DNA from: an uncultured Flavobacteriaceae bacterium
GTDB taxonomy: Bacteria > Bacteroidota > Bacteroidia > Flavobacteriales > Flavobacteriaceae
DNA length: 64,000 nt
Direction of reading: 5' to 3'
Assembly (NCBI GenBank): GCA_947489085.1
Contig: CANLCJ010000021.1
Coordinates: 1 to 64,000 of the forward strand
Below are positions 3,366-35,731 of the stretch, in pieces. Both the position numbers and the translations under genes were made by a program. Numbering within the stretch: the stretch's first letter is position 1; each line of letters starts with the position of its first letter. The notes beneath the pieces were generated by a model. That model made no database searches. It was not told the DNA's origin and saw nothing but the letters and a program-made list of their open reading frames with translations.

Positions 3366-3410
3366 GCGGACAGTGCAGGATACTTTTTAATAAAAAAAAT
3401 TTTTTATTTG
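3366..3410 (+). promoter_or_regulatory. Regulon promoter A (GntR-type regulator gene)
   Basis: A tandem 10-bp repeat, GCGGACAGTG (3366-3375) and CAGGATACTT (3376-3385), is followed by TTTATTTG at 3403-3410, one mismatch from the Bacteroidota -7 box TAnnTTTG. The second repeat starts 27 bp before the -7 box, exactly as in the three sister sites at 4623, 28702 and 35687. No separate TTTG -33 box is present; the repeat occupies that position. Expected transcript start is about 3415-3418, giving a leader of about 105 nt before the ATG at 3523. Confidence 0.7.
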
Positions 3411-3522
3411 AGAGAACTAACAAGCTAGAATTACACAATTATTAAGTCTTTAGGTGGGTCTCTTATAAAATTACAGCACCGCTAAAGAACAATAATTAGA
3501 GTTGTGATTTTTTTTAAACTAT

Positions 3523-4524
3523 ATGATTGATACTAGAATTATCCTCACGGATATAGAGAGCAATAGCATCCCAAAATACAAGCGCATTGTAAATGCCTTT
3601 AAAGAATCGATAGAGATAAATGCACACAAGTCTGGGGATAGCATTCCGTCTATAAATGAATTTAGTAAGGACTATAAAATTTCACGAGACACAGTGTATA
3701 AGGCCTATAGCTTGCTAAAAAAAGAGGGGTTAATAAAATCTACGCCAAACAAAGGATATTACATATCTGAAAGTAACAAGAGAATACTTCTCCTAATAAG
3801 TACATTTAAAGCTTATAAAGAGGTGTTTTACCATTCGTTTGTTAATAGCCTTCCAGATAATATTACGGTAGATTTACAGTTTCACCACCATAATGTTAAA
3901 AATTTCAAGTCGATGTTGGATGTCGATAATGGCAAATATTTTAAATACGTTGTTATGGGGTTCGATCACCCAGAAGTGGTAGAAGCCTTATCTCAAATAG
4001 ATAAAAGCAGATTGTTGTTAATAGATTGGAAAGCCAATCTTAATAAACTAGAGAATTTCGTATTTCAAGATTTTGGTAAGTCTTTTAGCAATTGCTTAGA
4101 AGAAGGTTTATATTACTTTAAAAAATACAAAAATTTAGTTTTCGTGTATCCCTCATATACACATCATCCCTACGAAAGTGTAGAATACTTTGTTAAGTTT
4201 TGTAAAACACACGATCTTAATTACGAAATTTGCGAAACCTCAGAATCTTTCCACGTAAATAAACACAATGCCTATATTACAGTAAACGACCGCATGCTTT
4301 ACAAACTGCTTAGAGCTTGCCGCACTTATAATTACGAATTAGGTAAAGACGTTGGGGTACTGTCTTATAACGATACGCCTTTAAAAGAATTTACGCATAA
4401 AGGCATCTCTGTAATATCAGTAGATTTTACAGAGTTTGGAAAACGAGCAGCAGATTTTATAACGTCTACTGAGCCGGTAAGAAAGTATTTAACAACAAAA
4501 TTAATACTACGAGATTCTTTATAA
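3523..4524 (+). CDS. GntR/LacI-type transcriptional regulator
   Basis: The N-terminal 80 residues form a GntR-type winged helix-turn-helix (KSGDSIPSINEFSKDYKISR, then DTVYKAYSLLKKEGLI). Residues about 85-333 resemble a periplasmic-binding-protein-like sensor domain of the LacI/GalR type, as in Bacteroidota sugar regulators that combine a GntR head with a PBP1-like body. It stands directly upstream of the uronate operon in the same orientation and carries the same direct-repeat promoter as that operon, so it probably senses a uronate intermediate and controls this locus. Ligand and operator are unproven. The inverted repeat at 4830-4862 is a candidate operator. Confidence 0.85.
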   Translation: MIDTRIILTDIESNSIPKYKRIVNAFKESIEINAHKSGDSIPSINEFSKDYKISRDTVYKAYSLLKKEGLIKSTPNKGYYISESNKRILLLISTFKAYKEVFYHSFVNSLPDNITVDLQFHHHNVKNFKSMLDVDNGKYFKYVVMGFDHPEVVEALSQIDKSRLLLIDWKANLNKLENFVFQDFGKSFSNCLEEGLYYFKKYKNLVFVYPSYTHHPYESVEYFVKFCKTHDLNYEICETSESFHVNKHNAYITVNDRMLYKLLRACRTYNYELGKDVGVLSYNDTPLKEFTHKGISVISVDFTEFGKRAADFITSTEPVRKYLTTKLILRDSL

Positions 4525-4622
4525 TTGCTAATACAATGTTTAAAATTTGTAGATAACTTCGCTTAAATTATTTATTTGATAGGTTTAATACTTTTATTGA
4601 AAAGTTTACTTTTGTCTAAACT

Positions 4623-4667
4623 CAGGATAGAGCAGGACAGCTCAAGAAGGTGTCTTATCTATATTTG
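4623..4667 (+). promoter_or_regulatory. Regulon promoter B (uronate operon)
   Basis: Two direct 10-bp repeats, CAGGATAGAG (4623-4632) and CAGGACAGCT (4633-4642), precede TATATTTG (4660-4667), a perfect TAnnTTTG -7 box. The start of the second repeat is 27 bp before the -7 box, as in the sister promoters. This is the best-matching of the four -7 boxes. The expected start near 4673 leaves a long leader of about 245 nt before uxuB. Confidence 0.75.
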
Positions 4668-4829
4668 TTTGTAGTTCGAAGAGAAGAGAATAGCGATATA
4701 TTGCCATTCATTTTATGCTGTAAACTAAACCTAATAATCACAACAACGAGTATAGATCTTAAAATCTAAAGATACTTTTTGTACAAAGGGAGCATATAAA
4801 AGTATATTTTTAAAGCAATATGCTTTTGT

Positions 4830-4862
4830 AAACTATTGTTTTTGTTTTATTTACAATAGTTT
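4830..4862. promoter_or_regulatory. 10-bp inverted repeat, candidate operator
   Basis: AAACTATTGT (4830-4839) and ACAATAGTTT (4853-4862) are perfect inverse copies with a 13-bp spacer. The two half-sites are centred 23 bp apart, about two helical turns. They lie downstream of the predicted start and 60 bp before the uxuB ATG. There is no T tract, so a terminator is unlikely. It could be the operator of the adjacent GntR-type regulator or an RNA hairpin in the leader. Confidence 0.45.
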
Positions 4863-4921
4863 TAAGATGATTTTATTGAAAACATAAATTAAAGATTACT
4901 AATAATAAATACGAGGTATTG

Positions 4922-5749
4922 ATGAGTAAAACAATTGTAGTTACAGGTGCAGGAGGCGTACTATGTAGCACGCTAGCAGAAGCTTTAGCAAAAGAGGGAC
5001 ACAAGATCGCTTTATTAGATTTAAATAAAGACGCCGCAATAGCAGCAGCAAATAAAATTAATGAAGCAGGAGGAACTGCTATTGGCGTTAAAGCTAATGT
5101 TTTAGAAAAAGAGTCTTTAGTCGCTGCAAAAGAAGAAGTAAATGCAGCTTTTGGAAAATGTGATATTTTATTAAACGGAGCAGGAGGAAACCACCCGCTA
5201 GGCACAACGAGTAACCCATTTTTAGAAGCCAAAGATCTTTTAGATAAAACGGAAGGTTTTAAAACTTTTTTCGATTTAGACCCTACAGGCATTCAGTTTG
5301 TATTCAATTTAAACTTTATAGGAACATTATTGCCAACTCAAGTTTTTGCCGAAGACATGGTAGGTAGAGAAGGCTGTAGCATTTTAAATGTATCTTCTAT
5401 GAATGCATTTACACCATTAACAAAAATACCAGCATACAGTGGTGCGAAAGCAGCAGTATCTAATTTTACACAATGGTTAGCTGTACACTTTTCAAAAGTT
5501 GGTATTCGTGTAAACGCATTAGCACCAGGTTTCTTTTTAACAGAACAAAACAGAACCTTATTAACCAATACAGATGGAAGTTTAACACCTCGTGGTAACC
5601 AAATTATAGACCAAACCCCAATGGGTAAATTTGGAGAACCAGAAGATTTAGTAGGTACAACATTATGGTTGTGTGGCGAAGGGGCATCTTTCGTAACAGG
5701 CGTTGTAGTGCCAATAGATGGTGGTTTTAGCGCATATAGTGGTGTTTAA
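4922..5749 (+). CDS. uxuB: D-mannonate oxidoreductase (fructuronate reductase), SDR type
   Basis: This short-chain dehydrogenase interconverts D-fructuronate and D-mannonate with NAD(P)H in the cytoplasm. The nucleotide-binding motif is TGAGGVLCS near the N-terminus, the variant typical of the SDR-type UxuB subfamily (third Gly replaced). The catalytic pair is Y172xxxK176 (YSGAK). The NxGGG-like NGAGGNHPLG segment and IDGG C-terminus also fit. The ATG at 4922 is preferred over the TTG at 4919 because MSKTIVVTGAG is the expected start. It is the first gene of the ten-gene uronate operon and works between UxaC and UxuA. Confidence 0.85.
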   Translation: MSKTIVVTGAGGVLCSTLAEALAKEGHKIALLDLNKDAAIAAANKINEAGGTAIGVKANVLEKESLVAAKEEVNAAFGKCDILLNGAGGNHPLGTTSNPFLEAKDLLDKTEGFKTFFDLDPTGIQFVFNLNFIGTLLPTQVFAEDMVGREGCSILNVSSMNAFTPLTKIPAYSGAKAAVSNFTQWLAVHFSKVGIRVNALAPGFFLTEQNRTLLTNTDGSLTPRGNQIIDQTPMGKFGEPEDLVGTTLWLCGEGASFVTGVVVPIDGGFSAYSGV

Positions 5750-5769
5750 CATGTAAATATTGTATTGAT

Positions 5770-6738
5770 TTGGGAACACCTACTATCACTTGGGGAATTA
5801 TAGGTTGCGGCGACGTAGCAGAGGTTAAAAGTGGTCCTGCTTTTCAAAAATGTGAGCATTCAGAGCTATTGGCCGTGATGCGAAGAGATGCCAACTTAGC
5901 AGAAGATTTTGCAAAGCGACACAACGTACCTTTGTGGTATAACGATGCTAACGCACTTCTTGAAAATGAGGCTATAAACGCCGTTTATATTGCAACACCA
6001 CCCTCTACACATTTAGTTTACGCATTACAAGCTTTACAAGCAGGAAAAGATGTGTATATCGAAAAGCCTATGGTGTTATCTAACATAGAAGCAGCAGCAT
6101 TAGAAACAGCTGTTAATGCCAGTTCGCAAAAATTGGTTGTGGCGCATTACAGACGTTTTTTACCCATTTACCTCAAAGTAAAAGACCTTTTAGATTCTGG
6201 TGCCATTGGAGCTGTAAAATATGCAGATATTACCTTTTTACAACCTTTCGACTTTAATTCTAAAGCCACATGGCGATTAGATGAAGCCGTTTCAGGAGGC
6301 GGGTATTTTCATGATATTGCACCACATCAAATCGATTTAATGCATCATTTTTTTGGAGCATACCACACCGCAAAGGGGATAGCGGTAAATCAATCAGGAA
6401 TTAACAGCGTAGACGATACTGTTAATGGTATCATTAATTTTGAAAATGGCGTACAATTTAGAGGCATTTGGTCTTTTGCAATTCCCAAATACCTTCAAGA
6501 AGATAAATGCGTTATTTATGGCGAAAAAGGAACACTCGCATTTTCTTTTTACGAAGAAGAATTGACTTTGAATGTAGAAGAAAACGTATCAGTTTTTAAT
6601 TTCGAGAATCCAGAAAACATACAACAACCTTTAATACAAGAAACCGTAAATTATTTCCTAGGAAAACGCGACAACCCATGCCCAGTAGAGGCAGGCGTAT
6701 GTGTTACAGCCCTTATGGAATCGTTTACTAACACATAA
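5770..6738 (+). CDS. Gfo/Idh/MocA-family oxidoreductase
   Basis: The 322-residue NAD(P)-dependent sugar dehydrogenase-like protein has an N-terminal Rossmann fold (WGIIGCGDVAE) and the family motif EKP (K99 in IEKPM), followed by a GFO_IDH_MocA C-terminal half with GGGYFHDIAPHQIDLMHH. No in-frame ATG lies between the uxuB stop and the Rossmann motif, so TTG at 5770 is the likely start. It sits 20 bp after uxuB and 9 bp before uxuA. The standard glucuronate and unsaturated-uronate pathways do not need such an enzyme. It may oxidise or epimerise a related sugar acid from the same polysaccharide, for example iduronate. Substrate unknown. Confidence 0.85.
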   Translation: MGTPTITWGIIGCGDVAEVKSGPAFQKCEHSELLAVMRRDANLAEDFAKRHNVPLWYNDANALLENEAINAVYIATPPSTHLVYALQALQAGKDVYIEKPMVLSNIEAAALETAVNASSQKLVVAHYRRFLPIYLKVKDLLDSGAIGAVKYADITFLQPFDFNSKATWRLDEAVSGGGYFHDIAPHQIDLMHHFFGAYHTAKGIAVNQSGINSVDDTVNGIINFENGVQFRGIWSFAIPKYLQEDKCVIYGEKGTLAFSFYEEELTLNVEENVSVFNFENPENIQQPLIQETVNYFLGKRDNPCPVEAGVCVTALMESFTNT

Positions 6739-6747
6739 TTTATACAC

Positions 6748-7923
6748 ATGGAACAAACATGGAGATGGTACGGGCCTAACGACCCAGTATCTTTATCAGA
6801 TGTAAAACAAGCAGGAGCAACAGGCGTTGTCTCTGCACTACACCATATCCCAAACGGAGAAGTATGGACAGTAGAAGAAATACAAAAACGAAAGCATACT
6901 ATTGAAAACGCTGGTTTAACATGGAGTGTTGTGGAAAGTATTCCAGTACATGAAAATATAAAAACCCGTTCTGGCGATTTTAAAACCTACATAGAAAGGT
7001 ATAAAGAAAGTATCGCCAATTTAGCAAAATGCGGTATCACTATTGTATGTTATAATTTTATGCCTGTTTTAGATTGGACACGCACAGATTTAGCATATAA
7101 AGTAGAAGATGGATCGGAAGCCTTACGTTTTGATGTAACGGCATTTGCAGCGTTTGAGTTGTTTTTATTAAAACGACCAGGTGCAAAAGAGGCCTACTCT
7201 GATGCGCAGCAAAAAGCAGCAAAAGTTTACGTAGACGGGCTTTCTGAAGACGAAAAAACAAAACTGGTAAATAACATTATCGCAGGCTTACCAGGCGCAG
7301 AAGAAGGCTATACTTTAGAGCAGTTTCAAACGATTCTAGATACTTATAAAGACATAGATGCGCAAACATTACGTGATAATTTAGTAGCGTTTTTAAAAGA
7401 AATTATACCTGTGGCCTCACAAAATGAGGTATTAATGTGTATCCACCCAGACGATCCACCATATCCAATTTTAGGATTGCCAAGAGTTGTAAGTACAGAA
7501 GCAGATTATGCATATTTGTTTGATAATGTGCCAGATCGTTCTAATGGAATTACATTCTGTACAGGATCGTTAGGTGTTAGAGAAGACAATGATTTAGTGG
7601 GGATTTTTAAACGTTTTGCAGATCGTGCGCATTTCTTACATTTGCGTAGTACGAAACGCGATGCAGAAGGAAACTTTTACGAAGCCGATCATTTAGATGG
7701 AGATGTAGACATGTATGCTGTTGTAAAAGAAATTCTTATTGAAGAGAAAAGACGAAAAGCAGCAGGTATGGCAGATTTTGCAATACCAGTACGTCCAGAT
7801 CACGGACACCAAATGCTAGACGATTTACATAAAAAAACCAACCCAGGCTATTCTGGAATAGGCCGTTTAAGAGGTTTAGCAGAATTAAGAGGATTAGAAT
7901 ACGGTTTAAAACATACACTATAA
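6748..7923 (+). CDS. uxuA: Mannonate dehydratase
   Basis: This enzyme dehydrates D-mannonate to 2-keto-3-deoxy-D-gluconate (KDG). The 391-residue length and motifs match UxuA of the TIM-barrel xylose-isomerase-like type: HHIPNGEVW near residue 32, [19 protein letters not shown] in the middle, [11 protein letters not shown], and [13 protein letters not shown] near the C-terminus supply the usual metal-binding His, Cys and Asp residues. It follows the oxidoreductase by 9 bp and precedes kduI by 19 bp, so it is surely cotranscribed. Confidence 0.95.
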
Positions 7924-7942
7924 AACTAACATAACTTTAGCC

Positions 7943-8785
7943 ATGAGTACACATTACGAAACAAGATACGCGTCAAGTCCACAGGCAGTTAAGGCTTACG
8001 ATACACAACAATTACGAGATGAGTTTTTAATAGACAACTTAATGCAAGAAGACCAATTGGTTTTGGTATACACGCATTACGACAGATATATGGCAGGTTC
8101 TGCCGTTCCTGTAGCAGGTCCAGTAGCCTTAGATACTATAGACCCTCTTAAGTCTAGTTATTTTTTAGAGCGCAGAGAGTTAGGTATTATAAACGTAGGC
8201 GGTGATGGTACTGTAGAGGTAGATGGCGAAACGTATGCACTTACATTAAAAGATGCACTTTACATTGGTAGTGGTGCTAAAAATGTTGTGTTTAAAAGTG
8301 ATGATGCTAAAAACCCTGCAAAATTTTATTTAAATTCTGCACCAGCACATCAACATTTTCCAACTAAAAAGGTAAGTAAAGCAGAAGCTAATAAGATAGA
8401 GTTGGGGTCTTTAGAGACTGCAAATCACCGTACAGTAAACCAACAAATTATTGGGGGTATTGTAGAGACCTGCCAACTGCAAATGGGAATGACAGAGCTT
8501 AAAACAGGAAGTGTATGGAATACCATGCCAGCGCATGTACATGATCGTAGAATGGAAATCTATTACTACTTAGATATTCCTCAAGACCAAGCCGTATGTC
8601 ATTTTATGGGACAACCGCAAGAGACACGTCATATATGGATGCAAAACCATCAAGCGGTAATTTCACCACCATGGTCTATCCATTCTGGTTCAGGAACATC
8701 AAACTATACTTTTATTTGGGGTATGGCAGGAGAAAACTTAGACTACGGCGATATGGATGTTGCTAAAATAACAGATTTACGATAA
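7943..8785 (+). CDS. kduI: 5-keto-4-deoxyuronate isomerase
   Basis: KduI converts 4-deoxy-L-threo-5-hexosulose-uronate, which forms spontaneously from unsaturated uronic acid, to 2,5-diketo-3-deoxygluconate. The 280-residue cupin protein has the zinc ligands H198-V-H200 with E205 in AHVHDRRME, and H247 in WSIHSG, all at the positions expected for the family. Its presence ties the operon to polysaccharide lyase and GH88 products rather than to free glucuronate alone. It is followed by kduD after only 3 bp. Confidence 0.95.
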   Translation: MSTHYETRYASSPQAVKAYDTQQLRDEFLIDNLMQEDQLVLVYTHYDRYMAGSAVPVAGPVALDTIDPLKSSYFLERRELGIINVGGDGTVEVDGETYALTLKDALYIGSGAKNVVFKSDDAKNPAKFYLNSAPAHQHFPTKKVSKAEANKIELGSLETANHRTVNQQIIGGIVETCQLQMGMTELKTGSVWNTMPAHVHDRRMEIYYYLDIPQDQAVCHFMGQPQETRHIWMQNHQAVISPPWSIHSGSGTSNYTFIWGMAGENLDYGDMDVAKITDLR

Positions 8786-8788
8786 GGT

Positions 8789-9583
8789 ATGAGTATAGCA
8801 TTATTTGATGTAAAAGGCAAAGTAGCCTTAGTTACAGGCAGTACACATGGCTTAGGCATGTCTATGGCTAGAGGCTTAGGTTTAGCAGGCGCAACCATTA
8901 TTGTAAATGGAAACTCGTCTCAAGAGAAAATAGACAAAGCTGTTGCTCAGTATAAAAGTGAAGGCATTACAGCTCATGGTTACAAGTTTAATGTAACTAA
9001 TGAAGCCGAAGTAAGCACTGCTATTTCTAAAATAGAAGCAGAAGTGGGGACTATAGATATTTTAATTAACAATGCGGGGATTATAAAAAGAACACCGCTT
9101 GTTGAGATGGAAGTTGCCGATTTTAAAGAAGTTATAGACGTAGATTTAGTGAGTCCTTTTATCGTTTCTAAACATGTTGTAAAAGGCATGATAGAACGAA
9201 AAGCAGGTAAAATCATTAACATCTGTTCTATGATGAGTGAACTTGGTCGTAACAGCGTAGGTGCCTATGCCGCAGCCAAAGGTGGGTTAAAAATGTTAAC
9301 TCAAAATATGGCTACAGAATGGGCAAAGCACAATATACAAGTAAATGGTATTGGTCCAGGGTATTTTGCAACATCGCAAACCGCTCCAATACGTGTAGAT
9401 GGCCACCCGTTTAATGATTTTATTGTAAATAGAACACCAGCAGCTAAATGGGGAGACCCAGACGATTTAGCAGGTGCAGCAATATTCTTAGCGTCTAAAG
9501 CCAGCGACTTTGTAAATGGACATATCGTTTACGTAGACGGTGGGATATTAGCAACTATAGGAAAACCATCTAACGAAGACTAA
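8789..9583 (+). CDS. kduD: 2-deoxy-D-gluconate 3-dehydrogenase
   Basis: KduD reduces 2,5-diketo-3-deoxygluconate to KDG with NAD(P)H, the step after KduI. It is a classical SDR of 264 residues: TGSTHGLG cofactor motif near the N-terminus, NNAG at about residue 92, catalytic Y160xxxK164 (YAAAK), and a YVDGG C-terminus. The gene order kduI-kduD with a 3-bp gap supports the assignment over other SDRs. Confidence 0.92.
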   Translation: MSIALFDVKGKVALVTGSTHGLGMSMARGLGLAGATIIVNGNSSQEKIDKAVAQYKSEGITAHGYKFNVTNEAEVSTAISKIEAEVGTIDILINNAGIIKRTPLVEMEVADFKEVIDVDLVSPFIVSKHVVKGMIERKAGKIINICSMMSELGRNSVGAYAAAKGGLKMLTQNMATEWAKHNIQVNGIGPGYFATSQTAPIRVDGHPFNDFIVNRTPAAKWGDPDDLAGAAIFLASKASDFVNGHIVYVDGGILATIGKPSNED

Positions 9584-9586
9584 ACT

Positions 9587-10768
9587 ATGAAACATTCACT
9601 TTTTTATACCGCTTTGGTTGCTTTAACATTTTTTACAAGCTGTAAAGGCACACCACCCAAGGCTACTATTAGCATAAAAAATCCTTTAGATAGTGCACGC
9701 CAGCTTGAGACAGTAGAGGTAAAGATTTCAGACTTAAAGTTAAGTCCAGAAGATGCTATTGCCGATTTATCTGTTCAAGATGTAGCCACAAAAGCCATTT
9801 TAGTATCCCAATTGGTCGACGAAGATCAAGATGGTACTGCCGATGTATTGTTGTTTCAACCAGAACTTGAGCCTAATGCAACAAAAGCATATGCTTTGGT
9901 AAAAGTACCAGCTTCAGAACAACCAAAAGTTACCGAATATTGTTATTCTCGATTTGTACCAGAACGTACAGACGATTATGCTTGGGAAAACAATAAAGTA
10001 GGCTTTAGAACTTTTGGGCCTGTAGCACAACAAATGATAGAAGAAGGCGTTAAAGGAGGCACCCTGTCTAGTGGTATTGATGCGTGGTTAAAACGTGTGG
10101 AGTATCCCATAATAAACAAGTGGTATAAAAAAGCTGAAACAGAAAAAGGAGCGTATCACAAAGACACAGGTGAAGGTTTAGACAATTTTCATGTGGGCGT
10201 GAGTAGAGGTGTTGGTGGTATTGCTGTAAAAGCAGATACAACGTATTATGTGTCTAAAAATTTTACAGCATGGAAAACCATAACCACAGGGCCTTTAAGA
10301 ACCAGTTTTGTTTTAGAGTATGCCAATTGGGATGCTAATGGGAAAACAATTTCTGAAACCAAACACATTGCTTTAGATTACGGAAGCAACCTGTCGCGTT
10401 TTGAAATAGAAGTATCTGGAACAGATACCATTCATGCAGGCTTAACATTACATGAAAAAGATGGTACGCATACCATTAATAAAACCTCTGGTTGGGTGTC
10501 GTATTGGGAGCCGCACGACGATTCCGAATTAGGAACAGCCATTGTAGTACCAAACGGTAATTTAATATCAGGTGTACTTTACGATACGCCATTAAAAGAT
10601 AAGAGTAACGTATTTGCTCAAATTAAAGTAGAAAACGGTAAAGCTGTCTATTATGCAGGATTCGGATGGAAAAAAGCAAACGAATTTACAACCAAAGCAG
10701 CATGGGAAGAGTACTTAGCATCTTTCGCAACAAAATTAAATAATCCTTTAGTTGTTACAATCAACTAA
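9587..10768 (+). CDS. DUF4861 family lipoprotein
   Basis: The 393-residue protein has a lipoprotein signal peptide (ALTFFTSC, lipid-modified Cys at residue 19) and the features of the DUF4861 family, which recurs in uronate-containing polysaccharide loci of Bacteroidota. Visible landmarks are FRTFGPVAQQM, DNFHVGVSRGVGG, and a C-terminal YAGFGWKKA segment. It is placed between kduD (3 bp) and uxaC (8 bp), so a role on uronate-containing saccharides outside the cytoplasm is likely. The activity is unknown to me; an esterase, lyase or hydrolase cannot be told apart from sequence. Confidence 0.8.
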   Translation: MKHSLFYTALVALTFFTSCKGTPPKATISIKNPLDSARQLETVEVKISDLKLSPEDAIADLSVQDVATKAILVSQLVDEDQDGTADVLLFQPELEPNATKAYALVKVPASEQPKVTEYCYSRFVPERTDDYAWENNKVGFRTFGPVAQQMIEEGVKGGTLSSGIDAWLKRVEYPIINKWYKKAETEKGAYHKDTGEGLDNFHVGVSRGVGGIAVKADTTYYVSKNFTAWKTITTGPLRTSFVLEYANWDANGKTISETKHIALDYGSNLSRFEIEVSGTDTIHAGLTLHEKDGTHTINKTSGWVSYWEPHDDSELGTAIVVPNGNLISGVLYDTPLKDKSNVFAQIKVENGKAVYYAGFGWKKANEFTTKAAWEEYLASFATKLNNPLVVTIN

Positions 10769-10776
10769 ACCATACT

Positions 10777-12186
10777 ATGAACGCAACACATTTTATTTCA
10801 GACAATTTTGTGTTACAGTCTGATATCGCAGAAACACTTTACCATACCTATGCTAAAGATCTGCCTATAATTGATTATCATAATCACCTTTCTCCAGAAC
10901 AAATAGCAGCCAACAAGCCTGTTAAAAACATAACAGATGCTTGGTTAAATGGAGACCATTACAAATGGCGTGCTATGCGTGCCAATGGTATAGACGAATC
11001 TTATATTACAGGTGCTAATACCTCTAAAAAAGACAAGTTTTTAAAGTGGGCAGAAACGGTGCCTTATACCTTAAGAAACCCTTTATTTCACTGGACTCAT
11101 TTAGAATTAAAACGCTATTTTGGAATTGATGAAATCTTACAACCTTCTACTGCAGATGCGATTTACGATAAAATCAATACCATCTTAGAAGATAAGACGC
11201 CAGCACAACTGTTAGAACATTTAAAAGTTGAGGTGGTGTGTACAACAGACGACCCTATAGATGGTTTAGAGCACCATAAAGCTATAAAAGCTTTGGGGAT
11301 TTATACGAAAGTGTTTCCAACATTTCGTCCAGATGCCTTATTGCTTGTAGAGAAAGACAGTTTTCCAGAATATATCGGGAAATTAGCGGCTTGTTCTGGG
11401 GTAGCAATTGCTACTTTAGAAGACTTAGTTGAAGCTATAGCAGTTAGAATTGATTATTTTCATGAACAAGGTTGTCGTTTATCAGACTATGGATTAGAAG
11501 AAATTTATGCTTCAGAATTTACAGAAGTAGCTGTAGATGCTATTTTTAAAAAGCGACTTTCTGGTGCAGTACTTACTTCAGAAGAAGCTACAGAATTTGC
11601 ATCTTGTATTTTAAATACACTTTGTAAATTGTACCATGCTAAAGGGTGGACACAGCAATTTCATATTGGAGCTATTCGCAATAACAATAGCCGATTATTA
11701 GAACAAATTGGTTTAGATGCCGGAGTAGATTCTATTGGAGATTTCCCAGCAGCAAAAGCCATGTCTAAATTGTTTAACAGCTTAGACCGCTCTAGTCAAT
11801 TAGCCAAAACAATCAGTTATAACTTAAACCCATCTCAAAACGAAGTGTTTGCAACAATGATGGGGAATTATAGTGAAGCTAATGTACCTGGTAAAATGCA
11901 ATGGGGCTCAGGTTGGTGGTTTTTAGACCAAAAAGATGGTATGGAAAAGCAACTTAATTGCTTGTCTAACATGGGGCTGTTAAGCCGTTTTGTAGGCATG
12001 TTAACCGATAGTAGAAGCTTCTTGTCATTTCCTAGACATGAATATTTTAGACGCATTTTATGCAACCTTATAGGTGAAGATGTAAAGCAAGGTTTAATTC
12101 CTAATGATATTGAATTTTTAGGGAAAATGGTGCAAGACATTTGTTACTACAATGCCAAAAATTATTTTGGTTTTAATATGAAATAA
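10777..12186 (+). CDS. uxaC: Glucuronate isomerase (uronate isomerase)
   Basis: UxaC interconverts D-glucuronate and D-fructuronate (also galacturonate and tagaturonate). The 469-residue protein has the amidohydrolase-like signature IDYHNHLSPEQIA near residue 30, CTTDDPIDGL in the middle, QFHIGAIRNNN at about 290 and MLTDSRSF near 410, all hallmark UxaC segments. It feeds UxuB and UxuA in the same operon. Twelve bp separate it from dctP. Confidence 0.95.
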   Translation: MNATHFISDNFVLQSDIAETLYHTYAKDLPIIDYHNHLSPEQIAANKPVKNITDAWLNGDHYKWRAMRANGIDESYITGANTSKKDKFLKWAETVPYTLRNPLFHWTHLELKRYFGIDEILQPSTADAIYDKINTILEDKTPAQLLEHLKVEVVCTTDDPIDGLEHHKAIKALGIYTKVFPTFRPDALLLVEKDSFPEYIGKLAACSGVAIATLEDLVEAIAVRIDYFHEQGCRLSDYGLEEIYASEFTEVAVDAIFKKRLSGAVLTSEEATEFASCILNTLCKLYHAKGWTQQFHIGAIRNNNSRLLEQIGLDAGVDSIGDFPAAKAMSKLFNSLDRSSQLAKTISYNLNPSQNEVFATMMGNYSEANVPGKMQWGSGWWFLDQKDGMEKQLNCLSNMGLLSRFVGMLTDSRSFLSFPRHEYFRRILCNLIGEDVKQGLIPNDIEFLGKMVQDICYYNAKNYFGFNMK

Positions 12187-12198
12187 ACACAGAATATT

Positions 12199-13170: not shown

Positions 13171-13173
13171 GGT

Positions 13174-13665
13174 ATGAAAGCAACAAACGTTCTTTTCGAT
13201 AAAGCATGTAGAGTTATGGAAATTATTCTTATTGCAATTTTTGGTTTACTCGTCATTGATGTTTTAGGGCAAGTATTTTCAAGGTATATTTTAGGCCAAT
13301 CTTTTGCATTTACAGAAGAATTAGCACGTTTTTCTCTAATATGGCTCTCTGTATTGGGGGCAGCCTATTTAAATGCAAAACGTCAACACCTGTCGATGGA
13401 TTTCTTATATCAGAAATTTTCAGAATCTGGACAAAAACGCGCCCTATATTTTATTGAACTCTGTGTGTTCTTATTTGCACTTGTTGTTATGGTTATAGGA
13501 GGTTTTAACTTAGTATATACCACATTACACTTAGGGCAGCTTTCAGGAACACTACGCATTCCTTTAGGCTATATCTATGCTATTATGCCCATAAGCGGCC
13601 TGTTAATCATGTGGTTTTCATTATACCATGTATCTCTAATTAAAGCAAACAAACTAACAAACTAA
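13174..13665 (+). CDS. dctQ: TRAP transporter small permease (DctQ family)
   Basis: The 163-residue inner-membrane protein has four predicted hydrophobic helices (about residues 15-35, 50-68, 88-110 and 128-150) and the DctQ signature around EELARFSLIWLSVLGAAY followed by a charged KRQHLSMDF stretch. It lies between the receptor and the large permease with 3-bp gaps on each side. Confidence 0.92.
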   Translation: MKATNVLFDKACRVMEIILIAIFGLLVIDVLGQVFSRYILGQSFAFTEELARFSLIWLSVLGAAYLNAKRQHLSMDFLYQKFSESGQKRALYFIELCVFLFALVVMVIGGFNLVYTTLHLGQLSGTLRIPLGYIYAIMPISGLLIMWFSLYHVSLIKANKLTN

Positions 13666-13668
13666 ACT

Positions 13669-14973: not shown

Positions 14974-15010
14974 ATCGTATAGTTACAATTTAACGTATCA
15001 TTAGCGTTCA

Positions 15011-24667: not shown

Positions 24668-24677
24668 AACGTATAAT

Positions 24678-25877: not shown

Positions 25878-25938
25878 CTTTTTAAATAGCGAATTTAGTT
25901 GTTACTTGTTCGGCAAAAAAACCATCAATTTACTTTAA

Positions 25939-28701: not shown

Positions 28702-28746
28702 CAGTACAGTACAGGATACTGAAATAAAGAGCAATTCGTAAAATTG
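28702..28746 (+). promoter_or_regulatory. Regulon promoter C (second SusCD operon)
   Basis: Direct repeats CAGTACAGTA (28702-28711) and CAGGATACTG (28712-28721) precede TAAAATTG (28739-28746), one mismatch from TAnnTTTG. The second repeat starts exactly 27 bp before the -7 box, as at 3376/3403, 4633/4660 and 35697/35724. The predicted leader to the susC ATG at 28817 is about 65 nt. Confidence 0.7.
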
Positions 28747-28764
28747 TTAACATTTATTTATGAA

Positions 28765-28791
28765 AAAGTGAAAATGCATACATTTCACTTT
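28765..28791 (+). promoter_or_regulatory. Leader hairpin before second susC
   Basis: AAAGTGAAAATG (28765-28776) pairs with CATTTCACTTT (28781-28791) over 11 bp with one bulged A and a 4-nt loop, about 25 nt before the start codon. It may act in translation control or messenger stability. No T tract follows. Confidence 0.4.
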
Positions 28792-28816
28792 CATATTTAA
28801 TAATAAACTAAATTGT

Positions 28817-31800
28817 ATGTTAAAACTTAAACTTAAAATGAAACAAAAATTTAAAAAGCAATTTCCTGTTTCGAGTTTGATGTTAATGTTAGTATTGGTG
28901 CTATCCAGTTTTACTAGTATTAGCTTGCAAGCTCAAGATCGCGTTACAGGTACAGTTACGGGCGATGATGGCATCCCGTTACCAGGTGTAAATGTATTAC
29001 AAAAAGGAACTTCCAAAGGAGCTGTTACAGATTTCGATGGAAAATTTACTTTATTACTAGCATCAGGAAACAAAACCTTAGTGTTCTCTTACATTGGTTT
29101 TAAAACCAAAGAAGTTGCTCTAGGAGAAGAAAATAACGTAACAGTTGTTTTAGAAGAAGATGTTGAAAGTTTAGAAGAAGTTGTAGTAATTGGTTATGCA
29201 GCTGTAGAACGTGAAAAAATATTAGGATCTGTAGCAACAGTTAAGTCAGAATCTATACAACAAGCAGCACCAGTAGATGTATTACAAGGTGTGCAAGGTA
29301 AATTATCTGGGGTTCAAGTACTCTCAAATAACGGGCCAGGAGAAGGTTTTGATATTCGAATTAGAGGTATTAATACATTCAATGCAGGCGCAACAGGACC
29401 TTTATATGTTGTAGATGGTCAACAAACATTTGATATTGATAACTTAGATCCAGCAGATATTGAATCTTTAGAAGTAATTAAAGATGGTGCCACTGCGGCA
29501 ATTTATGGTGCAAGAGCAGGTAATGGTGTTGTTATCATAAAAACTAAAAGTGGTAAATCTGGTAAATTAAATGTAACTATTAATACGTCTACAGGTGTTA
29601 ATACTCTAGTAGGTCAAGTGCCAGTTGCTACCGGTGCCCAAGGTTTGTTAGTTGAGCAATTAGCAACACAAGGTAATGCTAGAAGTAACAGACAAAGAGA
29701 TACACTTAACTTGTTATTTAGAAACTCTCCAGATTTACAAGATTTGTTAACGAGACCAGGAATAAGACAGCAGACAAACATTGCGATTAGTGGAGGAACA
29801 GATAAGGCAACGTTTTACTGGAATACAGGATATATAGACGAGGAAACTATTATTAACAATAGCGATTTTAGGAGAATAAATACCCGTTTAAAGGTAGATG
29901 TAACCCCATCAGATAAGTTTAAATTAGGAACTTTAATCAACTTGTCTTTCGAAGAAATAAACGGTGCTAACATAAGACAGATTCTTCAACAAGCGGTAAG
30001 ACGTGTAACTTTCCTGCCTTTATTTGAGCCAGATGGTACTTTTGCTACATCGACACCTGCATTTAGATCTATCAACCCTCTTGCAGTAGCAGAACTAGAA
30101 ACGAGAAATGAAAGACGACTAAGAGGTAATGTGTTTAGTTATTTACAGTTTAACATTACCCCAAAATTATCTATTAAATCTACATTAGGTCTTGATTTTA
30201 GAAATAGAATCAATAGAGTTTTTACTCCTAACGAGCTAAATGCGCAATTCAATCCTCTAACTCCTGAAAACTTTCCAATTGTAGGGTCTGAAAGGAATCG
30301 TTTTGATTATAATATTCAGCAAGAGAATTTTATCAATTACAAGAATACATGGGGCAGACACAATTTTTCAGCTTTTGCCGGTATGCAATTGCAAGAGAAT
30401 TCGCTAGAAGATGTTAACATAACAGGAAACTTTACCAATTCGTTAATACGAACTTTTAATAACACAGAACCAGAATCTATAGTAGTAAATAATAGTACTG
30501 GAGATACTAGATCTTCTTTATTTTCTTTATTCTCAGGTTTTAGTTACGATTTCGATAGCAAGTATTTAGTTAGTGCAACAGTAAGAAGAGATGGGTCTTC
30601 AAGATTTGGAGATGGTAACAGATTTGGATATTTTCCTTCAGCTTCTTTGGGTTGGAAAATTAGCAACGAAAATTTCTTAAAAAATAACTCAACAATTAAT
30701 AACCTATTATTGAGAGCAAGTTACGGTATCACAGGTAACGATAGAGTAGGTAACTTTAGATCTCAAGCGCTTTTAGAGCCCAACCAAATATTTAATGCGC
30801 AAACAGGTTTCGATGCTGTTCAGATTGCTAATGATGATTTAAAATGGGAAGAAACTACATCTATAAATTTAGGTTTAGACCTAGGTTTATTTAAAAATCG
30901 CTTAAAATTTGCTTTCGATATTTACAGAACAGATACAGAAGATTTATTACAAGATTTACCACTAGCAGAAGAGTCTGGTTTTAATGAGGTTACGGCTAAC
31001 GTTGGTGCTATTAGAAACGAAGGTATCGATATATCTATTAACGGTACAGTATTAAAAACAAAAAACTTTTCTTGGGATGCTGGTTTCACGATAGGTTTAA
31101 CTCGTAACGAAGTATTAGAGTTATCATTATTTGATGAAGATGAAGCAAGTTTCCAAGTGCCTGGTCCAGGTACAAGTTTAGAGCCTTACTTACTAGAAGT
31201 AGGTCAGCCTATAGGTAATATTATTGGATTTAGACAAGATGGTGTTTTTCAATACGACGAGTCCAATGCTTTTATTACAGTTGGAGAAGGCGATAATGTG
31301 CGCTCAGAGCGTTTATTTCCAAATTTTGATGAAAATGGTTTCTTTTTAGGGACATATAACAGAGCAGACGGTACAGCTTTCCCTCAAGAGCGTGTTGGAG
31401 AAATCCAAAAGCTATCTGCAGCAGGTAGAGAATTAGGTGCAGGAGATTTTATATGGAATGATGTTAATGGAGACCTAATAATAGACGCCGAAAATGATGG
31501 AAGACAAGTTTTAGGTAATGGTGTAGCAACCGTGTTTGGTGGATTTACGCATGATTTTAAATACAAAACATTTACTTTAGGATTGTTATTTGACTATAGT
31601 TTTGGTAACGACTCATATAGAGAATACGACCATGAAAGAAACGCACAACGTGCCAGAATATTTACACCTAGCCCAGAGCGTATTGAGAATGCATGGATGA
31701 ACCCTGGAGACATTGCAGTATTTCCAAATTTAAACAGGCTTCCACAAAACAGAATAGATTTTGCAGGGGTTAATTCTCCTACAGCTAACAATCTGTATGT

Positions 31801-32056
31801 AGACGATGGTAGTTTTATTAAATGGCGATATGCACGTTTTGGATACGACATTCCAAAGAAAACCTTACAGTCTCTTAAGTTAGGTTTAACTAAAGTTAAT
31901 TTTAACTTTGCTGTAAACAATGTGTTAACTTGGACAAATTACCAAGGCTTTAATCCTGAATTTGGATCTCGTGGAAATCCTTTAACTCCAGGTAATGATG
32001 AATTGAGATTCCCTAACGACAGAGAATTCTTGTTAGGAATGCAAGTTAAATTTTAA
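28817..32056 (+). CDS. SusC-family TonB-dependent outer-membrane transporter 2
   Basis: The 1079-residue transporter has a signal peptide ending near SLQAQD, a carboxypeptidase-regulatory-like domain (TGTVTGDDGIPLPGVNVLQK), a plug domain (FDIRIRGINTFNAGATGPLY, then VVDG) and a long barrel ending in LLGMQVKF. An ATG 21 bp downstream (28838) is an alternative start; both give a signal peptide. It is paired with susD 19 bp downstream. It is the first gene of the operon under regulon promoter C and differs clearly in sequence from the SusC at 20.0 kb, so it probably takes a different oligosaccharide of the same polymer. Confidence 0.95.
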   Translation: MLKLKLKMKQKFKKQFPVSSLMLMLVLVLSSFTSISLQAQDRVTGTVTGDDGIPLPGVNVLQKGTSKGAVTDFDGKFTLLLASGNKTLVFSYIGFKTKEVALGEENNVTVVLEEDVESLEEVVVIGYAAVEREKILGSVATVKSESIQQAAPVDVLQGVQGKLSGVQVLSNNGPGEGFDIRIRGINTFNAGATGPLYVVDGQQTFDIDNLDPADIESLEVIKDGATAAIYGARAGNGVVIIKTKSGKSGKLNVTINTSTGVNTLVGQVPVATGAQGLLVEQLATQGNARSNRQRDTLNLLFRNSPDLQDLLTRPGIRQQTNIAISGGTDKATFYWNTGYIDEETIINNSDFRRINTRLKVDVTPSDKFKLGTLINLSFEEINGANIRQILQQAVRRVTFLPLFEPDGTFATSTPAFRSINPLAVAELETRNERRLRGNVFSYLQFNITPKLSIKSTLGLDFRNRINRVFTPNELNAQFNPLTPENFPIVGSERNRFDYNIQQENFINYKNTWGRHNFSAFAGMQLQENSLEDVNITGNFTNSLIRTFNNTEPESIVVNNSTGDTRSSLFSLFSGFSYDFDSKYLVSATVRRDGSSRFGDGNRFGYFPSASLGWKISNENFLKNNSTINNLLLRASYGITGNDRVGNFRSQALLEPNQIFNAQTGFDAVQIANDDLKWEETTSINLGLDLGLFKNRLKFAFDIYRTDTEDLLQDLPLAEESGFNEVTANVGAIRNEGIDISINGTVLKTKNFSWDAGFTIGLTRNEVLELSLFDEDEASFQVPGPGTSLEPYLLEVGQPIGNIIGFRQDGVFQYDESNAFITVGEGDNVRSERLFPNFDENGFFLGTYNRADGTAFPQERVGEIQKLSAAGRELGAGDFIWNDVNGDLIIDAENDGRQVLGNGVATVFGGFTHDFKYKTFTLGLLFDYSFGNDSYREYDHERNAQRARIFTPSPERIENAWMNPGDIAVFPNLNRLPQNRIDFAGVNSPTANNLYVDDGSFIKWRYARFGYDIPKKTLQSLKLGLTKVNFNFAVNNVLTWTNYQGFNPEFGSRGNPLTPGNDELRFPNDREFLLGMQVKF

Positions 32057-32075
32057 ATTTTAAAATTATTTAAAG

Positions 32076-33650
32076 ATGATGTTTTTTAATAAATATAAAA
32101 AAGTAAAGTACTTTGCAGCTATGTCTTTAGTTGTAGTTAGCGCCTTATTTTCGTGCGAGGAAGTGGTAATTCAAGAGCCAGAAAGTTCAATATCTCCCGA
32201 AGGTTTCTTCAGCACAAATACGAACTTAGAATCGAGTCTGGTAACTGGGTATTCGTTCCTTAGAAGGACTTATAGGAACCGTTATTTTGAGTGGGGAGAT
32301 TTAAGGTCTGATAGTTTCGATCCCTCTGGTTCAAATGTAGTAAGAGAGTCTATACATAATAGCATCATGGATCCTGGTAACGCAGGACTTCTAAGATGGG
32401 CAGATCCTTACCAAGCCATAGATGCTGTAAATAGAGTTATAGATGCAGCGCCGAGTGTTCCGAATGTAGATAGAGAAATATTAGGACAAGCCTATGCTAT
32501 AAGAGCAAAATTATATTTTGATCTTACTCGTGTTTGGGGAAATGTACCTGTATTTACAACGGCCGTAAGTGCTGTTACAGATGTATTTACTGATGCAGTA
32601 CCTTCTTCCACAATTATAAATGAAGTTGTTATACCAGACATGCGAATAGCAGATTCTTTATTAACTGTACAAAGCGATGAGTTTAGGTTTACGAGGTCTA
32701 GTATATTAGCACTACAAGGTGAAGTATATCTATGGGAAGGCGAAAACGAACTTGCTAGACAAGCACTTTTAGAACTAGAAGCCTTGGGCACACATAGATT
32801 GGTAACGACTCCTCAAGAATGGGAAGACTTATTTTCTAATCAACAACCAGTACCAAGCTTTCCCGAAGGACGTGGTAAATTACAAGAAGGACCAGAGTTA
32901 ATATTCTCTATCCCTTTTGATGATCCTCTTACCGAAGGCATAAACTCTTCTGTATTAGGGCTTTTTGCAGGTGGAGCTGAGGTAACCGTAGTATCTACTT
33001 CAGTAGAAGAAAAATGGTTAGAGCGTTTTCCTATAGATTCGACATGGGAAGATCTTTATCCAGATACCCCTCCTGTGTTTACGACAACCGAAGAGGATGA
33101 AGATGGTGTAGAAATGGAAGTGCCGTTATATGGAGATTGGAGATTATTTGCCATTCGAGAAGATGGTAATTTTGAAGAAGGTATTGGTGTAGCGTTAGGA
33201 GAAGCTCGTATAGAAAAATGGCAAGAAGAACGTATTGGTTTATCCAGTGCTAATGATGATACAGATATAGTGGTATATCGTTATGCTGACATTGTATTGA
33301 TGATTGCAGAAGCGGAGTTAAAATTGGGGAATATAGATGCTGCTCTAAATAGAATTAATGAAATAAGAACAGCTCGACAATTGCCTTTAGTTACAGCAGA
33401 AGATTTTGGTAGCGATTTTGATTCTCGTTTAGATTACTTATTAGATGAAAGACAATTTGAATTATTTGCTGAAGGTAAGCGTTGGTGGGATTTGGTTAGA
33501 AACGATAGAGCAATTAGTACTATGAATCCAATACTTACAGATCGTTTAGACACAGAAGTTGTGCCTTTAACACCAAACAGAATACTGTGGCCTATACTCA
33601 ATGAGCATTTAATTGATAACCCGAACCTATCGCAAAACCCTGAGTGGTAA
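32076..33650 (+). CDS. SusD/RagB family glycan-binding lipoprotein 2
   Basis: The 524-residue SusD homologue has lipobox SALFSC (Cys at about residue 27), N-terminal helices with AIRAKLYFDLTRVWGNVPVF, and the C-terminal RYADIVLMIAEAELKLGNID and DERQFELFAEGKRWWDLVRN motifs. It is the partner of the upstream SusC. Unlike the first SusCD pair, it is followed by two fasciclin-domain lipoproteins and not by enzymes. Confidence 0.94.
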   Translation: MMFFNKYKKVKYFAAMSLVVVSALFSCEEVVIQEPESSISPEGFFSTNTNLESSLVTGYSFLRRTYRNRYFEWGDLRSDSFDPSGSNVVRESIHNSIMDPGNAGLLRWADPYQAIDAVNRVIDAAPSVPNVDREILGQAYAIRAKLYFDLTRVWGNVPVFTTAVSAVTDVFTDAVPSSTIINEVVIPDMRIADSLLTVQSDEFRFTRSSILALQGEVYLWEGENELARQALLELEALGTHRLVTTPQEWEDLFSNQQPVPSFPEGRGKLQEGPELIFSIPFDDPLTEGINSSVLGLFAGGAEVTVVSTSVEEKWLERFPIDSTWEDLYPDTPPVFTTTEEDEDGVEMEVPLYGDWRLFAIREDGNFEEGIGVALGEARIEKWQEERIGLSSANDDTDIVVYRYADIVLMIAEAELKLGNIDAALNRINEIRTARQLPLVTAEDFGSDFDSRLDYLLDERQFELFAEGKRWWDLVRNDRAISTMNPILTDRLDTEVVPLTPNRILWPILNEHLIDNPNLSQNPEW

Positions 33651-33672
33651 TAAATAAAATAGTAAAGAAATT

Positions 33673-34476
33673 ATGAAAACATATTTTAAAATATCTATAC
33701 TTAGTGTTATTGCTTTAATAATCACTTCGTGTACACTTGATGTTCAAGACGAATTTAATTTCAGACCAGACATCAACGATAACGATCCTTTTGAGAATTT
33801 AACGGCTTGGCAATTTATATTAGCTAGACAAACAAATACAATAGCGGATCCAGAAACCGGTGCTAGACGACTTGATGATGATAATTTAGATTATTTTAGA
33901 GCGGCAGTTGAAGCCACAGGTTTACAAAGCCTGTATGCAAACGCTAATACAACTTCAACCTTCTTATTTCTATCAAACAGATCTTTTATAAATGGTAATC
34001 ACGATAGAAATGTAAATGTTATTACCAATGGAAGAAGAGGTGTTGCACCGCGAACAGTTAATGTAGATGAGTTCTTCAACGATTTATCTGATGAACAATT
34101 AAACAGGCTTAGAGCAGTACTTCTATACCATATTGTTCCTGGAGAGTTTTTAGACCAGTTACAAGCTTTTCCATCAATAAACACACCTAGAGAATTTCCA
34201 ACATTGTTGCCTCAGGTAACAACGGATCTTGTAACGGAAGAAGCTGTAGCTATAAGTAATGAATCAAGTCTAATTGGTATAGAAAGGCGACAAGAATTTC
34301 TGTTATTTATAAATCCAGATACTGCAGCTTTAATACCGTCTGCATCATCAGATAACTTCGACCAAGGTGTAGCATTACACAACTTTGTTTTGAGTAACGG
34401 TATCGGTCATTTTATAGAAGAGGCTGTACGTTTCCAAGATTACGATTTATATAGTAATTTTGACTTAAGTTTATAA
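33673..34476 (+). CDS. Fasciclin-domain lipoprotein, single domain
   Basis: The 267-residue lipoprotein (lipobox IITSC, Cys at residue 20) carries one divergent fasciclin (FAS1) domain, with the family pattern of a first FLFLSNRSF block and a later LLYHIVPGEFL block. FAS1 domains mediate adhesion or ligand binding. It lies 22 bp after susD and is surely cotranscribed, suggesting a surface-exposed accessory glycan-binding protein of this SusCD complex. No catalytic motif is seen. Confidence 0.75.
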   Translation: MKTYFKISILSVIALIITSCTLDVQDEFNFRPDINDNDPFENLTAWQFILARQTNTIADPETGARRLDDDNLDYFRAAVEATGLQSLYANANTTSTFLFLSNRSFINGNHDRNVNVITNGRRGVAPRTVNVDEFFNDLSDEQLNRLRAVLLYHIVPGEFLDQLQAFPSINTPREFPTLLPQVTTDLVTEEAVAISNESSLIGIERRQEFLLFINPDTAALIPSASSDNFDQGVALHNFVLSNGIGHFIEEAVRFQDYDLYSNFDLSL

Positions 34477-34508
34477 ATAGATAATAAATACATTTAAATA
34501 CAAAATAA

Positions 34509-35612
34509 ATGAAAAAACATATAATTAATAAATGCGTTCTATTTATGATGGGTTTAGGTTTGCTTAGCTCTTGTAATATAGAAGACGACAGTACAGCGGT
34601 AATTCCCTTTGTGCCTGGAGTAGTTGAAAATCCAGTAACAATTTCGCAACTTATCATAGCGAATCCTAATTTAACAATTTTAGAGAGAGCTCTAAGAGTT
34701 GTGGAAGCTGAAACAAATACGAGACTAATTACAGACTTAAATATTCCAGGTAATTCTACGTTTTTTGCGCCAAGTGATGCAGCGTTCATGGAGTTGTTGG
34801 CAACTAACGGTATTGATAACATTGAGGATATAACCCCTGATGATCTTATCGAGATTTTGCAAAATCATATTCTGCCAATAGAAGTTATGTCTGCAAACTT
34901 ACAAACAGGTTATTTTGAGACGGCCTTAGAAAGTGATGACAATGATGATTTAAACATCAGCATGTTTATCAACACAGCAGAAGGTGTAGTTATTAATGGT
35001 AATGCTACAGTAGTAATGCCAGACATTGATGCTAATAATGGTGTTATACACATTGTAGATGCTGTAATACAATTACCAACAATAGCAACCTTTACAGGAA
35101 ATGATCCTAGCTTATCTGGTTTCCATAATACGGTAATTGCCCAAGGTCTAAGACCTATAGTGGGAGCATTGGCAACAAGAGCTGCTTTTGTGCCTACCAA
35201 TGAGGCTTTTAATGCTTTTGCATCTGGATTAGACATAGCTGAAGAAGGCGAAGAACAAGATCCTCTTGTAATATTAAACCTTAGAAATACACTTCAAAAC
35301 CATGTAGTGGTTGATGATTTAAGCGCTCCAGAATTGTTGGACATGAGTGATGAGGAGAACCCTTTTATGGTAGAAACTATAGCAGAGTCTAACTTAAGTA
35401 TTAATGTTACAACATCTGTAGAAGATGTGGACGATGCAGGTGTTGAAGTTACAGCTATAGCTTCTTTTACAATTACAGATGCTTTGGGTAATGTTGCTAA
35501 CACTGTAACAACAGATGTACAGGCTTCAAATGGTACCTTAACTATAATAAACGCTGTACTACAACCAGAACCTATACTTGAATTACCAGTTGTTGAAGAA
35601 GAAATGGAATAA
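34509..35612 (+). CDS. Fasciclin-domain lipoprotein, two domains
   Basis: The 367-residue lipoprotein (lipobox GLLSSC, Cys at residue 22) contains two FAS1 domains. The first (about 45-195) shows the consensus STFFAPSDAAFMELL, LQNHILPIEVM and ANNGVIHIVDAVI. The second (about 200-355) has AAFVPTNEAFNAF, LQNHVV and GTLTIINAVL. It starts 32 bp after the single-domain fasciclin gene and ends the operon just before a strong terminator at 35641. Probably a surface adhesin or binding protein; the ligand is unknown. Confidence 0.85.
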   Translation: MKKHIINKCVLFMMGLGLLSSCNIEDDSTAVIPFVPGVVENPVTISQLIIANPNLTILERALRVVEAETNTRLITDLNIPGNSTFFAPSDAAFMELLATNGIDNIEDITPDDLIEILQNHILPIEVMSANLQTGYFETALESDDNDDLNISMFINTAEGVVINGNATVVMPDIDANNGVIHIVDAVIQLPTIATFTGNDPSLSGFHNTVIAQGLRPIVGALATRAAFVPTNEAFNAFASGLDIAEEGEEQDPLVILNLRNTLQNHVVVDDLSAPELLDMSDEENPFMVETIAESNLSINVTTSVEDVDDAGVEVTAIASFTITDALGNVANTVTTDVQASNGTLTIINAVLQPEPILELPVVEEEME

Positions 35613-35640
35613 TAAAATTAATTCAGTTTTATTACAAATT

Positions 35641-35669
35641 AAAGGGTTGCCATTTGGCAACCCTTTTTT
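35641..35669 (+). terminator. Terminator of second SusCD/fasciclin operon
   Basis: AAAGGGTTGCC (35641-35651) pairs perfectly with GGCAACCCTTT (35656-35666) around an ATTT loop and runs into a T tract. It isolates the SusCD/fasciclin operon from the sulfatase gene, whose own regulon promoter begins 18 bp further on. Confidence 0.93.
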
Positions 35670-35686
35670 ATGCACTAAAATGTTAT

Positions 35687-35731
35687 CAGGACAGAACAGG
35701 ATACACCTAGTGTTTTTAAAACTTATTTTTA
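35687..35731 (+). promoter_or_regulatory. Regulon promoter D (sulfatase-rhamnosidase gene)
   Basis: Direct repeats CAGGACAGAA (35687-35696) and CAGGATACAC (35697-35706) precede TATTTTTA (35724-35731), one mismatch from TAnnTTTG. The 27-bp offset from the second repeat to the -7 box equals that of the three other sites. The leader to the ATG at 35781 is short, about 43 nt. Confidence 0.72.

Follow-up and report, generated by a model that had tools for sequence, protein, structure and literature searches.

AraR of Bacillus subtilis joins a GntR winged helix to a LacI-type sugar-binding domain and governs a sugar and polysaccharide regulon (PMC4494728, PMC4218819), and in the available text of the latter source it is a repressor acting at palindromic boxes. 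In the marine flavobacterium Zobellia galactanivorans the alginate system is under the control of a GntR-family protein, AusR, which the accessible part of PMC8286568 also describes as a repressor. GntR-family proteins that bind direct repeats, not palindromes, are known from NanR, FarR, NagQ and the MocR subfamily; these are other subfamilies with other repeats, for which the available text of PMC4494728 mentions no fixed offset from a -10/-7 box. Direct repeats also precede the genes of polysaccharide utilization loci in the Bacteroides regulons of hybrid two-component systems (HTCS), with about 21 bp between repeats (PMC3878776, available text), and the rhamnose genes under the DeoR-family RhaR, with a periodicity of 10-11 bp (PMC3870299, available text). 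Here we examine a 64,000-nucleotide stretch of DNA from an uncultured Flavobacteriaceae bacterium (the window; contig CANLCJ010000021.1, positions 1 to 64,000, assembly GCA_947489085.1), in which four promoters carry a tandem CAGGAYA repeat at a fixed distance from a -7 box. Comparison of sequences makes it likely that regulators of the GntR/LacI type bind these repeats and control an ulvan regulon, and the GntR-type regulator of the window, which an earlier note on this DNA had treated mainly as a target, now appears to be the best candidate for the binder.

The candidate shares with AraR its two-domain build, whereas its sites are direct repeats at an offset of 10 bp, fixed to the -7 box, and not a palindromic operator of the AraR kind. 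With AusR it has in common that a GntR-family protein of a marine flavobacterium would govern the use of an algal polysaccharide. Binding of GntR proteins to direct repeats is known, and for the AraR type the literature, in its accessible portions, yielded palindromes only. Among the matches listed by literature searches on an ulvan GntR regulator or motif and on the letters of the site, neither site nor regulon is described, figures and supplements (such as the FucR and ManR logos) being outside their scope. The sites, their boxes and the genes concerned are as follows, with protein domains assigned by Pfam and N20 denoting a gap of 20 bases.

3366..3383, + strand: tandem 10-bp repeat TTGCGGACAG-TGCAGGATAC, second repeat at 3376, 5' of the gene for the GntR-type regulator
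3403..3410, + strand: -7-like box TTTATTTG, N20 after the second repeat, with TT instead of TA, as in orthologues
3523..4524, + strand: regulator of 333 aa with GntR winged helix and Peripla_BP_3, the uronate-type GntR, likely one of the binders
4623..4640, + strand: tandem repeat CTCAGGATAG-AGCAGGACAG, that is, CAGGATAG-AG-CAGGACAG, second repeat at 4633, 5' of the uronate/TRAP operon
4660..4667, + strand: -7 box TATATTTG at N20
4919..14973, + strand: uronate genes, putatively a single operon as judged from gene order and strand (SDR, GFO/IDH, UxuA, KduI, SDR, DUF4861, UxaC, TRAP DctP, DctQ and DctM)
15752..19831, + strand: hybrid two-component sensor with C-terminal AraC helix-turn-helix (HTH), unsupported as a binder
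28702..28719, + strand: tandem repeat TGCAGTACAG-TACAGGATAC, that is, CAGTACAG-TA-CAGGATAC, second repeat at 28712, 5' of the second susCD-fasciclin operon
28739..28746, + strand: box TAAAATTG at N20, a deviant form also seen in relatives
28817..35612, + strand: SusC, SusD, a protein of 267 aa with no Pfam match, and a fasciclin-domain protein
35687..35704, + strand: tandem repeat ATCAGGACAG-AACAGGATAC, that is, CAGGACAG-AA-CAGGATAC, second repeat at 35697, 5' of the sulfatase-rhamnosidase gene
35724..35731, + strand: -7 box TATTTTTA at N20
35781..39311, + strand: fusion of sulfatase and alpha-L-rhamnosidase (GH78-type), 1176 aa

All four tandem CAGGAYA repeats that the earlier note had placed at 3366, 4623, 28702 and 35687 are found in the sequence, and the proposed distance of 27 bp (7 + N20) from the start of the second repeat to a TAnnTTTG-like box is exact at every one of them. 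The description of each site as two 10-bp repeats needs some loosening: a copy does lie 10 bp before the second repeat in all cases, but this first copy is imperfect at 3366 (two of seven positions off) and at 28702 (one of seven). Similarly, the boxes at 4660 and 35724 conform to TANNTTTR, while those at 3403 and 28739 depart from it, both departures recurring in relatives. The gntR promoter retains its deviant TT-NN-TTTG box at 3403-3410 and in the orthologues, as though deliberately weak, and the susC-promoter form at 28739-28746 recurs behind such repeats in other genomes and genera. It was further proposed that the repeat takes the place of the normal -33 TTTG. There is indeed no TTTG at the -33 place of the sites, but a -33 TTG gave no signal at 67 other intergenic TANNTTTG boxes, so that the absence of a "normal" element lacks a measured contrast.

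The cleaner and unbiased test of the spacing is a search of the whole 3.65 Mb genome for CAGGAYR-N{8,32}-TANNTTTR with the gap left free, which gave 73 hits (38 in the backward control). Eighteen of these fall at N20, 5 at N21 and 7 at N30, with a mean of 2.09 at the gaps besides 20 and 30; N30 was kept out of the mean, as its hits are mostly an echo of the first repeat at N20 sites. The Poisson probability of the N20 excess is about 1e-11. At 12 of the 18 N20 sites, which were chosen blind to the first repeat, a copy matching at least 5 of 7 positions stands at offset 10, compared with 0 or 1 at ten other offsets, and three of the 18 (on contigs C1, C6 and C35) fall within coding regions, lack the upstream copy and probably arose by chance. 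The repeat by itself does not stand out: a loose search of the window (3 mismatches) gave 19 hits against a shuffled mean of 26, not above chance, and the whole genome at 2 mismatches gave 119 hits against 79 for the backward-read pattern, mostly background. The repeat together with its spacing is significant, as the earlier note had argued from the identical spacing, and the 27-bp rule applies across the genome.

The same preference is seen from the other side, in 91 tandem sites picked blind to the box (435,236 bases searched in this genome, 395,838 in three relatives): 42 have an exact TANNTTTR at N20 and 4 have it at N21, with 5 spread over the rest of the range from 5 to 33. Both sets of regions, here and in the relatives, had been fetched for pattern hits, some with the N20 box, so the counts of tandem sites and those for logo and matrix are not genome-wide. 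Among the 74 intergenic tandem sites the N20 box is exact in 40 and matches at least 5 of 6 positions in 53, and 61 have a box at N19-N21; site C7:83415 is counted as a promoter site, its coding flag being due to an over-long start of the open reading frame. Beyond the repeats and the N20 box, which are partly present through selection, a logo of the 53 sites displays nothing else between -87 and +32 relative to the box. The weight-matrix scan suggested earlier was carried out with a matrix trained solely on 38 sites of relatives, and it scored the window sites at 36.9 (35687), 36.7 (4623), 31.1 (28702) and 21.0 bits (3366). It gave 19 hits of at least 20 bits in the 435 kb of this genome, compared with 0.0 in five shuffles, and no fifth site of at least 12 bits in the 64-kb window.

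A GntR/LacI-type protein fits as the binder: its presence follows that of the sites over 199 genomes, sites adjoin its genes, and the repeats differ between GntR types. The GntR winged helix is above the Pfam cut-off in the window protein (PF00392, E 2.1e-9) and in its paralogues on contigs C7 and C18, Peripla_BP_3 (PF13377) is so in the window protein and the C7 paralogue, and the window protein matches solved chains of the GntR family. Two repeats plus the N20 box, with one mismatch allowed, are found in 10 of 12 genomes of the genus and 41 of 199 of the family, and the reversed pattern was found 0 times in every row. Nine of the 12 genus genomes have the uronate-type GntR, G006 with its 3 sites not being among them; the rha-type GntR is present in all 10 genus genomes with sites (placed by identity in G004 and by score alone in G005), and the two without sites, G007 and G009, have other GntR types only. 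Across the family, 40 genomes have both site and rha-type GntR, 1 the site only, 4 the GntR only and 154 neither (Fisher P 3e-36, a value that ignores relatedness, the 199 genomes coming from 198 genera). The E-value cut of 1e-78 for the GntR was fixed after the table had been viewed, and no site was found in the 15 genomes whose matches were all weaker (E 1e-60 to 1e-72). All 34 genomes with at least two sites have the rha-type GntR. A closer look at 11 loci of our own choosing revealed that each of the four GntR-only genomes does carry a site next to gntR, at N20 and with at least 2 differences from the scan pattern, which the scan had missed.

Sites also adjoin the regulator genes themselves, on both flanks of the uronate-type gntR and beside the rha-type gntR. 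Upstream of the orthologues of the window gntR a site is present in 9 of 9 genus loci, in three of which the first half is degenerate and was read off the alignment; its gap is N19 in L124 and L125 and N20 in L148 (the same as L119). The downstream site is present in 8 of the 9. In 15 flavobacterial loci, spanning Algibacter, Hyunsoonleella, Seonamhaeicola, Aestuariivivens, Tamlana, Flaviramulus and others (at least 5 of the contigs appear already among the counted genomes), the downstream site lies at N20 in 14, with none in L152; in L153 and L159 its box is TAAAATTG/TAACATTG, and there the site may belong to another operon.

If the repeat is read by a GntR protein, GntR types that differ in the recognition helix would be expected to carry different repeats with an unchanged period. 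The gal-type GntR (DNA-binding domain SRDTVxMAF) is the one beside galactose-type genes, identified by eye as galM, galK and a transporter. In 8 of 10 genus loci (L128, L129, L131-L133, L135, L136 and L141) its gene is preceded by CTAGTAGGGTCTAGTAGG or a close variant, with the box at N20 in 5, N18 in 2 and N17 in 1; the repeat is also found in G017. In G119 and G048, CAGAACAG-like repeats at N20 lie just 3' of the SVNDLL-type gntR; they were found by a CAGGAYR-like search, which favours such letters. Of the four loci with other GntR types (G119, G048, G172 and G017), these two have the N20 site and the other two none with a good box. In all 5 loci of more distant homologues from rumen Bacteroidales (L163-L167, 38-44% identical), gntR is preceded by tandem repeats, which directly follow a TAnnTTTG box. 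Four of these are close relatives, with proteins 86-97% alike where aligned, and carry CAGCACAG-AA-CAGCACAG; the fifth, whose protein is 35-41% alike to theirs, carries CAGCAAAG-TA-CAGCACAG. A lone short tandem repeat per 400 bp is not rare by chance, and the weight of these cases comes from recurrence. One of the rumen loci, L163, adjoins genes resembling GH51, GH43 and a sugar transporter (named by eye).

The earlier note had the four sites define a regulon joining depolymerisation to intracellular uronate use. The regulon is real, but its proposed scope was too narrow, as sites on other contigs also precede PL28 lyases and a rhamnose-type operon. On the 119.5-kb contig C7, site C7:11784 precedes genes for a fusion of aldolase II and short-chain dehydrogenase, an FGGY kinase and an FMN dehydrogenase, an operon named for rhamnose by analogy with relatives. 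Other C7 sites precede two alpha-L-rhamnosidases, BNR_4 genes with an ulvan-lyase beta-trefoil, a GH43, a PL28 gene and some genes of unclear role. Sites on C9 precede two PL28-type genes (one scanned), that on C17 a PL28 match slightly under the cut-off, those on C14 two GH39-like genes with an ulvan-lyase beta-trefoil (one scanned), that on C10 a GH43, that on C18 a second hybrid sensor, and those on C16 and C32 proteins of unclear role. Because sites stand before PL28 ulvan lyases, the rhamnose-type operon and rhamnosidases, the predicted gene functions place all of them, the window operons included, in a single ulvan regulon spread over at least 6 contigs of the draft assembly.

Several observations weigh against binding by the GntR proteins. 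No 5-of-6 box stands at N20 in 21 of the 74 intergenic tandem sites, and 13 have none at N19-N21. Peripla_BP_3 in the C18 paralogue, at 21.9 bits, is below the Pfam cut-off of 26.5; G033 (88% complete) has one 1-mismatch site and no such GntR; and this genome's own gal-type gntR (L134) is without the gal-type repeat, that of G009 being degenerate and on the other strand. Moreover, the GntR genes lie within the pathways they would control, and their co-occurrence with the sites is confounded with that of the rhamnose-type operon. The earlier note had proposed instead a class II activator with an AraC-type HTH, naming the hybrid sensor at 15752, to which an AraC protein of the C7 locus may be added. 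Regulators of the AraC type do bind direct repeats, both proteins are encoded among the regulated genes, and the C18 site precedes a second hybrid sensor. However, a close orthologue of the sensor (at least 59% identity), found in 8 of the 12 genus genomes, is lacking in G004 and G010, which carry 11 and 12 sites; the AraC protein is present in 6 of 12 and missing from G001 (8 sites), G006 (3), G008 (4) and G010 (12). HTCS motifs, in the available text of PMC3878776, repeat at about 21 bp and not at 10, and a copy at offset 20-22 is found in at most 1 of the 18 N20 sites. We regard this proposal as very improbable, both proteins being largely refuted as binders by their distribution. A DeoR-type RhaR was also rejected, with no HTH_DeoR match in G002, G003 and G004, all of which have many sites.

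The other suggestion made at the outset, an alternative sigma factor with CAGGAYA as its -35 element, would suit the fixed spacing and the absent -33 element, but we consider it the least probable of all: the -7 box is the sigma-A consensus, the free-gap search with TANNTTTR peaks at N20, 12 of the 18 unselected sites keep a copy exactly 10 bp 5', and two sites have four repeats in phase. OmpR/PhoB sites cover the -35 region with tandem repeats of 10-11 bp. A regulator of that type, which would leave both the co-occurrence with GntR and the GntR-type-dependent repeats unexplained, is improbable, if a little less so than the AraC-type proteins. In the explanation that we favour, the 18-bp site CAGGAYAG-NN-CAGGAYAV would be recognised by a regulator with GntR winged helix and sugar-binding Peripla_BP_3, two winged helices lying head to tail on the same face of the DNA, 10 bp apart. 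An ulvan sugar would be the effector, uronate-derived for the window paralogue and rhamnose-derived for the paralogue beside the rhamnose-type operon, and the sugar-loaded, bound regulator may contact RNA polymerase at the -7 box, giving class II activation. Class II activators have their place near -40.5. If the box lies at -12 to -5, where the sigma-A -7 box was mapped in Flavobacterium psychrophilum (PMC9723704, available text), the site would span about -49 to -32 with its centre at -40.5, in place of the -33 element. The class II-like geometry proposed earlier is in this sense upheld: the site overlaps the -35/-33 region and its distance from the -10/-7 box is constant, with the start position taken from another flavobacterium.

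Activation is favoured, tentatively, by the strict spacing and the missing -33 element, and we hold it to be only slightly more likely than repression. As repressors, which is a substantial if lesser possibility, the same GntR proteins would occlude the -33 region when no sugar is bound and be released by ulvan sugars. AraR and AusR are repressors in the available text of PMC4218819 and PMC8286568, gntR itself has a site, and the repeats of the distant homologues adjoin the transcription start; the position of the rumen Bacteroidales repeats, just 3' of the -7 box, is a repressor's place. An occluder has no evident need for such strict spacing, and the sites are without a -33 TTTG, though the baseline of that element could not be established. 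Since the gal-type sites also prefer N20, spacing does not tell activator and repressor apart cleanly. A wider generalisation, which we put forward with considerable doubt, is that the GntR/LacI-type regulators of Bacteroidota form a family of class II activators on head-to-tail 10-bp repeats, whose half-sites (CAGGAYAG, CAGAACAG, CAGCACAG, CTAGTAGG) vary with the winged helix; in ulvan degraders the uronate- and rhamnose-type paralogues would share one half-site, each ulvan promoter reading both sugars.

The sites amount to a code from which the regulation of ulvan use in marine Flavobacteriaceae can be read: they can be listed from sequence and lead to lyase genes that, lying on other contigs, would escape gene-cluster methods. 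They shift the focus away from the hybrid sensor and onto a GntR-type sugar sensor in the cytoplasm, for whose AraR type they suggest an unusual binding mode, and they allow a direct test of what switches degradation, the polymer outside the cell or its sugars inside. On C14 (L038), the sites at 93859 and 96717 have four in-phase 10-bp repeats rather than two, at N21, and precede two similar genes, of which the scanned one is GH39-like with the ulvan-lyase beta-trefoil. In L066 (C18:9037-14481) a GntR gene adjoins a hybrid sensor gene with the site TTCAGTACTG-TTCAGGACAC between them, and a gene whose beginning resembles that of a sensor likewise follows a GntR gene in L146 (G002) and L147 (G011).

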